A DNA stretch of 54,381 bases from assembly GCA_000310025.1 (NCBI GenBank), contig FN649742.1:2034239-2088619 (forward strand), given 5' to 3'. Shown here one piece after another: positions 12,208 to 28,677 of the stretch. A program made the translations under genes and the position numbers. The stretch's first letter is position 1. The number at the start of each line of letters is the position of its first letter. This DNA comes from Ectocarpus siliculosus (Eukaryota; Sar; Phaeophyceae; Ectocarpales; Ectocarpaceae). The notes under the pieces were generated by a model that did not search any database, was not told the origin of the DNA, and saw only the letters and a list, made by a program, of their open reading frames with translations.

Positions 12208-15200
12208 CTAGATTTCGCCTCCGAAATCGAGTCTCGTGGCGCCTATTTGCTCCTGCTGCGGTCGCAGGTTCAGGAGCTCCTGCTGCGTGGATGCAGTAAC
12301 GCCTGCCACAAGAGAGAGAGAGAGAGAGAGAGAGAGAGAGAGAGAGAGAGAGAGAGAGAGAGAGAGAGAGAGAGAGAGAGAGAGAGAGAGAGAGAGAGAG
12401 ACAGACAGAGAGGTCCACGCCCATCGTAGCATGACGGAGGTAACTCAGACGGCGATTGCATCAAAATTTGCAACGCAATTGGGACCTCGCTGCTCTCGCT
12501 CGCTATCCTTCACGCTGTCGTCTGGCGTCATGTACTTCGAAGCACTGCTGTAGTACAGTCTGCTGTCGCACTTTCACGTCAAAAACCGCGCCGATTCCGT
12601 TCCTACGTGATAATACAGGGGCTCTCCGTGTCACAGTAGTTCCCGGGAATACCAAATTCATATCTATTCCTCGTGCATGGCTTAGAACGGAAGATAAGAA
12701 ACGCTGCGCCTTGCAACGGCAGAGTGCCGATGTTGCCGTGAACTATTAGAACGAAACAGCAACCGGGAGATGCGTGTGCAACATGGGGTTTTACAGCCAC
12801 CGCCTCCTTAGCGGGCGAAGGAAGACTTGCCTCGTAGATCTTGCATGGTAAGCCAAGGCTGCTGACCTTCGAGAACACGCATGGGCTAGCATCGCGACTG
12901 CGGAACAGGCAGGATGGCAGGGTGTCGGGTCCAGCGTCCCAGGTTCCCAGGTTGGGTTGTATGAGAAGGGGCGTTGACGGAGATTCGGAGTTCTTATAGA
13001 CTGTACATGCCAAGCACGGATTTCGTGACGAAACGGCGAAACTGACGACAGCATTATTTTTTCCCGACCAAACGCGGAACAGAACAGACTCGTATGATAT
13101 GCAAAGCACCTCCCTTCGACGCCGGTAGTCTTTCTGTGAGATTATGTACAAGTATACTTTCTAAGAACAGGAAAGCCGGCTGTATCAGAAGCAAGCGGCC
13201 GGTACACTCTGAGCGATACCACCGTGTAACTCCCACGTCCGATCCGACGGGAACGACATGTTGTGTTGCTGTACAATGTATGCTGTTCTGTCATGCTACA
13301 CATTGACATGTACCATGTGACAAGACTCGGAAAAAATGATACTTTTTTTGTGTGGCCCGCGAGCACGTATTATTTGCTGGGTTTAGTGTACGTTAGACTA
13401 TGGTTGCTGTCCATGTTGTAGACTACCGGCAGAGATGGCGAAGTCGCCGCGTAACGTTGTTACACCACAGCTGATTACATGTGTGCGGGGGTGATCGCAC
13501 AACTACTAACTGTGGTACTACTCTCTCTCGCACACCGGGGGATTCATCTGGCACAAGAAGGGTGCGAAAAAAGCAAAGGGAGGATTTTTTTGTTTGTAAA
13601 ACCAAACAGGCAACAATGTCGCACCCTGGAAAGGGAATACGACTCTGCTCGCATCTGCTTCACCATGACTTTTGAGTTTGTGTTTTGGCCATCTCATCAC
13701 CCGCGGGCGGATTTAGTAAATAGTTGAGAGATATTCTTTCCGCTAACCACACTCCCCCGCTAATATCGCTAGCAGTAGGGGTAACAACATTATTTTTGCT
13801 CATAATGAAATAAGGTGCAATCAATAATGGACGGTTTTTGTAATAGGACCATCGTGTTGTTGGATTCAGCCGAACAACACAATGTGTAACTAGGTCTACA
13901 GCCAGCCGTCGTAGTACTGTACATGGGATGCCGGGATAACGCGACACGAATAAAGCTACACGAGCGCATGAAATACGCATCTAGACAGCACCCCAACACC
14001 CCAACACCACCCCAAATGGACCGACCATCCGTTGAATCTACGAAGACATGAGGTCGTCGCCACTAAAAGATAGCTACGGTAGATCTGACTCTCCCACATG
14101 CCTTTCGTTCGATAGGAGCTACAGCTCCAAGCGACACACCGCGACGAAAACACAACCAACTCCCCTCCTCGTGTACTTCAAGTTTTAAGCCAGGCCAACG
14201 GTACAAACAGGTGTTTCACCCACAACATACGGTCTACAGTATATGCCTGCCCATCTNNNNNNNNNNNNNNNNNNNNNNNNNNNNNNNNNNNNNNNNNNNN
14301 NNNNNNNNNNNNNNNNNNNNNNNNNNNNNNNNNNNNNNNNNNNNNNNNNNNNNNNNNNNNNNNNNNNNNNNNNNNNNNNNNNNNNNNNNNNNNNGGGGGG
14401 GGGGGGGGATGGGCGATGGTAAACGCCAGATGGTTTGTGTGATGTGTGGAGCGCCTTCTTGACTCAAAGCGGTCGTCAAGCGACTGTTGTTTTTCTGAGC
14501 CGTGTGGCCAGATGCATCCCACTTGAAGCCGTCAAGGAGAGAAAACCACAAGCTAGCGGAGAGAAGCAAAACATCGGACAGAGAGGCTGGGGGCGGTCGT
14601 TTGGTTCTAACCTGAGCCGCCGCTTCTTGGTTGTACACCATCTCGCACAACTGGTGGTAGCTCACGACACCTTTGCGGTTTTTGTCCATGATGTTGAACA
14701 GCTTTCTGTACGTCTCCTGGGATGGAAACAATGGTGGGGTTCGAATTCACATCAACCGAGCACAAGAGGGCAAGCAGGTCGCCAGTCAGAGGGTGGGTAT
14801 TGGTGTTTCCGTGCTGCCCATTCGAGCGACCTCACTGTGAAAAACACGGGGCTAAGCGCCTTGGTTGATCGGCTTTTCTGTGAATAAGAGGCAGCGTCAC
14901 CCCAAACACTGCAGCATAAGCAAAATACGCCGTGAGTGAATGCTTTGGGCATCTACTTCATCTCCGCGACACGAGACGCTAGTAGTATGGTGTCCATGGC
15001 CGTTTTCACCCAAGTCGCTGCCCGACTCCCAAAAGCAACCCGTCGACAGCGAAGAGATCACCTTCGGGGCGTGAAAGTTTAGCGCGAACAGCACATCTCT
15101 TAGCTCCTTGATGGTCAGCTCCCCATGGCCGGCCACGTCTACCTCCTCGAACGCGGATGCCAAACCGCTCTGCCCAAGCCCTAACTCTTCCAGGCGGTTT

Positions 15201-28677: not shown

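Follow-up and report, generated by a model that had tools for sequence, protein, structure and literature searches.

A distant MLO-like protein of Ectocarpus siliculosus with a degenerate EF-hand pair in its predicted cytosolic tail

A gene on the minus strand of contig FN649742.1 of the brown alga Ectocarpus siliculosus raises the question of whether a membrane protein of the MLO type can carry an EF-hand pair in its own chain and, if so, what such a pair would do there. The control of plant MLO proteins by calcium and calmodulin is unsettled. Calcium channel activity has been reported for Arabidopsis MLO1, 5, 9 and 15 (PMC9810639). Another source locates calmodulin binding in the plant MLO tail, and allows that in epidermal cells the proteins may not act as channels or that such activity may matter little (PMC13360292). 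A natural fusion of an EF lobe and a tail helix would indicate which segment of the tail the lobe contacts, and would offer a single-chain protein from which the regulator could be deleted or exchanged for another. It would also touch on how far back MLO and EF-hand proteins have been linked outside the green lineage. All positions below refer to the window, by which we mean the whole 54,381-nucleotide stretch that was analysed.

The gene comprises 14 exons between 28677 and 12208, the last of them tentative, and its in-frame product is 990 residues long (Table 1). Exons 1-13 were positioned manually by means of splice sites, open frames and the motifs pointed out in the initial annotation; they encode 966 residues in which no stop interrupts the frame and all phases are consistent. 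Each of the 13 introns preserves the frame, twelve being GT-AG and intron 4 GC-AG (GC in place of GT at its donor, window 26367), and introns 4-13 are without exception in phase 0. In a leave-one-exon-out comparison of codon usage, the chosen frame beat the other two forward frames in all 14 exons, by a small margin in exons 7 and 9; with all six frames compared it was best in 11 of the 14, a reverse frame winning in exons 3, 6 and 7. At the end of the gene, 24 further residues are gained from a phase-0 acceptor at 12282 and are followed by a TAG stop at 12210-12208. Exon 14 is the least certain exon because a gap of 138 N at 14257-14394, inside intron 13, could conceal a further exon. Another route to the end at 12208, read as GVTASTQQELL from an acceptor just before GCGTTACTG, was rejected for a phase mismatch; the phase-0 acceptor slightly further in gives the same stop.

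The coordinates and the two splice junctions named in the initial annotation proved exact, both junctions (21650/15259 and 15062/14716) being GT-AG and in phase 0. The motifs in which it had recognised an MLO order, ELMIMGFISL (exon 2), SRLKRRYEK (exon 3), FFRTTF (exon 4) and GKVIDEQ (exon 11/12 junction), lie on the minus strand in the claimed order and in a single spliced frame. An EF-hand pair comes straight after the TM7-proximal tail in the same frame, in line with its assertion, the first loop sharing exon 12 with that tail and the second lying in exon 13.

Table 1. Features of the MLO-like/EF-hand gene in window coordinates. TM, transmembrane helix (predicted); numbers in brackets are residues.
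Feature	Position	Strand
Exon 1: ATG, TM1 (21-39), part of first Mlo match (29-70)	28500..28677	-
In-frame stop just upstream of the exon 1 ATG	stop-to-stop ORF 28408-28719	-
Exon 2: ELMIMGFISL, TM2 (62-80), Cys-free 13-residue first extracellular loop, start of TM3 (94-112)	27962..28101	-
Exon 3: end of TM3, SRLKRRYEK, start of second cytoplasmic loop	27063..27187	-
Exon 4: FFRTTF, second Mlo match (163-218), TM4 (192-210), GC donor	26368..26587	-
Exon 5: most of acidic second extracellular loop (211-290), TM5 (291-309)	25548..25916	-
Exon 6: third cytoplasmic loop, part	24834..24989	-
Exon 7: third cytoplasmic loop, part; codon-usage support narrow	24116..24229	-
Exon 8: long part of third cytoplasmic loop	22859..23713	-
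Exon 9: third cytoplasmic loop, part; codon-usage support weakest	22543..22602	-
Exon 10: end of third cytoplasmic loop, start of TM6 (798-816)	22227..22430	-
Exon 11: end of TM6, TM7 (828-846), C-terminal ...MDPEIIGK	21650..21823	-
Intron 11, 6390 bases: sense LINE-like element and 73-bp minisatellite	15260..21649	-
Exon 12: VIDEQ tail, predicted helix (873-891), EF-hand 1	15062..15259	-
EF loop 1, DVAGHGELTIKE (906-917); A at ligand position 3, H at 5	15104..15139	-
Exon 13: EF-hand 2	14612..14716	-
EF loop 2, DKNRKGVVSYHQ (942-953); K at ligand position 5, Q at 12	14651..14686	-
Exon 14 (tentative): QELLNLRPQQEQIGATRLDFGGEI and stop; phase-0 acceptor downstream of CT repeat	12208..12282	-

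When residues 1-221 were compared with Pfam, Mlo (PF03094) was the sole family to appear at E values of up to 10 (19.9 bits, E 2.7e-4), at a score under the gathering cut-off of 24 bits; the whole protein (14.5 bits) and a core stripped of its loops (17.4 bits) likewise remain under it. Scanned alone, residues 29-70 align with positions 21-65 of the Mlo profile (E 0.0033) and residues 163-218 with positions 242-297 (E 0.0014), with no other family reported for either; the two segments do not overlap, are collinear with the profile, and find Mlo as the best among 24736 families. In ten controls (two reversed and eight locally shuffled sequences) Mlo never appeared, and other families did in three, with a best E of 0.041. 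We also aligned the protein with a working version of the barley MLO sequence, taking significance from 500 local shuffles. Residues 22-69 gave a score of 55, which none of the 500 shuffles reached when residues 1-113 were set against the first 200 of barley MLO, six reached with residues 1-150 against the first 220, and 35 reached with residues 1-221 against the whole; residues 150-221 gave a score of 45, reached by eight of 500. Such comparisons make homology of the N-terminal half to MLO well supported, mainly through the Pfam matches.

Beyond TM4 the picture is different. The TM5, TM6, TM7 and tail segments have no Pfam Mlo match, and TM5 alone draws weak matches to other families, the best being ATP-synt_E (E 0.018, below cut-off). 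Against the barley sequence, the score of TM5 was reached by 499 of 500 shuffles and that of the TM6-to-tail segment by 187 of 500, such that neither is significant. The latter alignment is the one containing GKVIDEQ, which as an MLO motif is therefore not significant when taken by itself. What speaks for MLO homology of the C-terminal half is order and topology. Hydropathy has seven peaks, starting at residues 21, 62, 94, 192, 291, 798 and 828, with an eighth, marginal one at 849-867 (1.25) adjoining TM7, and the predicted topology is that of seven transmembrane helices with a cytosolic C-terminus. Of the predicted extracellular loops, the first has 13 residues and the second 80, with a net charge of -12; the predicted third cytoplasmic loop is 488 residues long (310-797) and rich in Ser, Arg and Gly. 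The MLO family has four conserved extracellular cysteines; here Cys is found at 108, 323, 620, 674, 804 and 955 only, with none in the predicted extracellular loops. Thus the initial description of an MLO membrane protein stands in so far as the protein is a seven-helix protein of MLO-like character, but the plain name MLO does not fit, given the sub-threshold Pfam score, the dissimilarity from TM5 to the tail and the Cys-free extracellular loops. The profile search which it had proposed as a check came out divided, EF-hand_7 passing its cut-off and Mlo falling under its own.

The EF-hand_7 match (PF13499, cut-off 30 bits) covers residues 897-958 at 36 bits in the whole protein and 41 bits in the tail alone. 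At E values of up to 0.1, the tail further finds 254 distinct PDB sequences (best E 4e-9), and the best 60 of these 254 include RIB35, RIB57, a flagellar radial spoke protein, troponin C, centrin and calmodulin; an EF-hand fold is, on this similarity, the likely structure. The loops themselves are degenerate. A PROSITE-type pattern for the canonical EF loop finds no match anywhere in the 990 residues, loop 1 deviating at ligand positions 3 and 5 and loop 2 at 5 and 12. Since three ligand-type residues remain in each loop (at 1, 9 and 12 in loop 1 and at 1, 3 and 9 in loop 2), some calcium binding is possible. High-affinity binding by the pair is not likely, and a lobe next to the TM7-proximal helix that binds calcium weakly or is insensitive to it appears likelier than a built-in calcium sensor. 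The initial annotation had held that the pair would replace an external sensor of calcium; this is not supported, because each loop is without two of its calcium-ligand positions and neither fits the pattern.

Between TM7 and the EF-hands, an amphipathic helix, KLVVQFRERLTNRLEELG, is predicted at about residues 873-891, with a hydrophobic moment of 0.43; the best 18-mer of the barley tail reaches 0.44. Its charge relative to barley depends on the stretch chosen, the net charge being +1 against 0 for the best 18-mers and -2 against +5 over the 20 residues that follow DEQ. The helix has no Trp, and by comparison with the plant calmodulin site, a helix with conserved Leu and Trp, we thus find the amphipathic helix present and the Trp absent. 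When the conserved Leu and Trp are changed in the plant proteins, barley MLO is described as binding soybean CaM1 less well or not at all and NTA/MLO7 as doing likewise with CML12, while NTA variants kept their binding to CML10 and CML11 (PMC8198571). A single-sequence structure model of exon 12 alone, of low confidence (mean pLDDT 67.8, pTM 0.43), has helices at 8-26, 29-40 and 50-62, which correspond to the tail helix followed by a helix-loop-helix. By analogy, the predicted helix would occupy the place of the plant MLO calmodulin-binding site.

It is reasonable to postulate, with a probability of roughly 0.5, that the gene product is a single protein of about 990 residues in which a distant MLO homologue carries a cis-tethered EF lobe, and that this lobe packs on the TM7-proximal helix and is not a high-affinity calcium switch. 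The order of elements in the predicted cytosolic tail, the amphipathic helix soon after TM7 and then the EF-hand pair at about 897-958, would place the lobe only a few residues beyond the helix at which plant MLOs bind calmodulin in trans. Packing on the helix may be permanent or weakly dependent on calcium, and the lobe may govern how active the membrane part is or where it is placed, or may dock another protein. A standing contact or docking surface seems more likely than a calcium switch because the EF loops are degenerate. Any conduction of calcium by the membrane part would be by analogy with plant MLOs only.

One alternative to a single chain is that the EF exons lie outside the main transcript, the MLO-like part ending by reading into intron 11 and the EF exons being part of a different or an alternative transcript whose start may lie in the repeat-rich intron. 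Intron 11, the weak point of the one-gene reading, is by far the longest (6390 bases, the next longest being 2329); it bears a LINE-like element in sense orientation, with a reverse transcriptase ORF at 16497-17630 (E 9.8e-33), as well as about 12.6 copies of a 73-bp unit at 20299-21217. Reading through exon 11 would give an alternative tail of 32 residues after GK, and 14 ORFs of at least 40 residues begin with ATG on the same strand within the intron, but the LINE reverse transcriptase is among them. Furthermore, the frame of exon 12 contains no Met from the stop before 15346 to the end of the exon, so the first EF-hand requires an upstream exon, for which exon 11 provides the right phase; splice sites, phase and codon usage all carry on across the junction. 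A small unrecognised exon may lie within intron 11. We consider separate transcripts distinctly unlikely, and the fusion as initially annotated is favoured over a separate start in that exon 12 has no in-frame Met with which to begin by itself. It is very improbable, in turn, that the membrane part is an unrelated seven-helix protein with no MLO kinship. Such a view would account for the sub-threshold Pfam score, the lack of significant MLO similarity from TM5 to the tail and the missing extracellular cysteines, but not for two non-overlapping segments that pick Mlo among 24736 families in the right order, nor for the absence of Mlo from all ten controls.

A third alternative concerns function, with the EF pair as a working calcium sensor in an MLO-type channel, in which incoming calcium would bind to the tail and so exert feedback on the channel. 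The EF-hand_7 score over its cut-off, the retention of D1, G6 and E12 in loop 1 and of D1, N3 and G6 in loop 2, the position of the pair behind an amphipathic helix that corresponds in place to the plant calmodulin site, and the channel activity reported for the Arabidopsis proteins (PMC9810639) all agree with such a sensor. Two ligand positions are nevertheless gone from each loop, neither loop fits the EF pattern, and channel function in so distant a relative is putative, such that we regard a working sensor as possible, if on the unlikely side. Rather unlikely, too, is the more far-reaching proposal of a stramenopile MLO-type channel that would dispense with soluble calmodulin by having its own calmodulin-like lobe in cis, so that a single chain would contain the calcium feedback or some frozen form of it.

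In common with plant MLOs (PF03094; barley MLO, Arabidopsis MLO2/MLO7), the protein has seven predicted helices, similarity near TM1-TM2 and in a stretch into TM4, and, following TM7, an amphipathic helix in a predicted cytosolic tail. It is unlike them in the EF-hand pair of its tail, in the lengths of its third cytoplasmic loop (488 residues) and first extracellular loop (13 residues), in having no Cys in the predicted extracellular loops and no Trp in the helix at the calmodulin site, and in scoring below the Pfam cut-off. A regulatory helix followed by a calmodulin-like domain in one chain is the arrangement of CDPKs, which have four EF-hands; the order of helix and EF domain is alike, whereas the present protein is a membrane protein and not a kinase, and has one degenerate EF pair. 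MLO-like proteins in Chromalveolata, along with several MLO fusion proteins, were reportedly described by Kusch et al. 2016. A 2020 survey counts Ectocarpus siliculosus among 28 species with MLO genes; its MLOs are of 400-600 residues and the available part of its text mentions no EF-hand, a description from which the present protein, at about 990 residues with an EF pair, is set apart (PMC7291212). The gene probably belongs to the same broad group as the algal and Ectocarpus MLO genes surveyed previously, and is possibly the very gene already surveyed in this species. A literature search found no MLO with an EF-hand in one chain in the titles and abstract openings among the matches listed.

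Relatives were sought in the source genome (189456909 bases in 492 contigs). The Pfam Mlo profile returned no candidates there, a result that is uninformative because 14 of 14 control genomes gave none either. In protein searches of the source genome, residues 1-221 found four matches, all to this gene, and the TM6-tail segment five, four of them to this gene and one elsewhere (E 0.33). A TM2 signature pattern matched once, in this gene, and its reversed control equally once, while barley MLO gave two weak matches with internal stops (E 0.03 and 5.2) and missed this gene. No confirmed relative was found in viral and prokaryote contig collections, which says little since the gene is eukaryotic, and a search of the PDB set by sequence found no MLO.

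A dispersed element with the core GGTCAATGGTCTAACNGCTAAGGCATGCA, often with a poly-C end, occurs on the minus strand of the window at 21414-21442, 15332-15360 and 1149-1177. Its core has 690 genome matches at no more than one mismatch, and the reversed control has none. Among eight copies compared (L013-L020), some have 90 upstream bases in common, and L015 and L016 share only the last few tens of bases, a pattern resembling 5' truncation. One copy sits downstream of the LINE ORFs, and its poly-C falls some 45 bases short of exon 12. The element may represent a LINE or SINE family that bears a poly-C tail.

Two minus-strand ORFs towards the end of the window, at 52380-52637 (E 4e-20) and 53146-53673 (E 5.3e-25), carry Cys-rich EsV-1-7 motifs (PF19114). 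EsV-1-7 is the family of the Ectocarpus developmental gene IMM, and is described as expanded in brown algae, patchy elsewhere and present in some viruses (PMC7457493). At 1970-2635, also on the minus strand, there is a fragment of an ATP-binding domain of the ABC transporter type (PF00005, E 6.2e-8). On the plus strand, an EGF-like Cys-rich stretch at 29878-30219, with weak Teneurin EGF and EGF_2 matches that are both below cut-off, is perhaps the start of another, opposite-strand gene.
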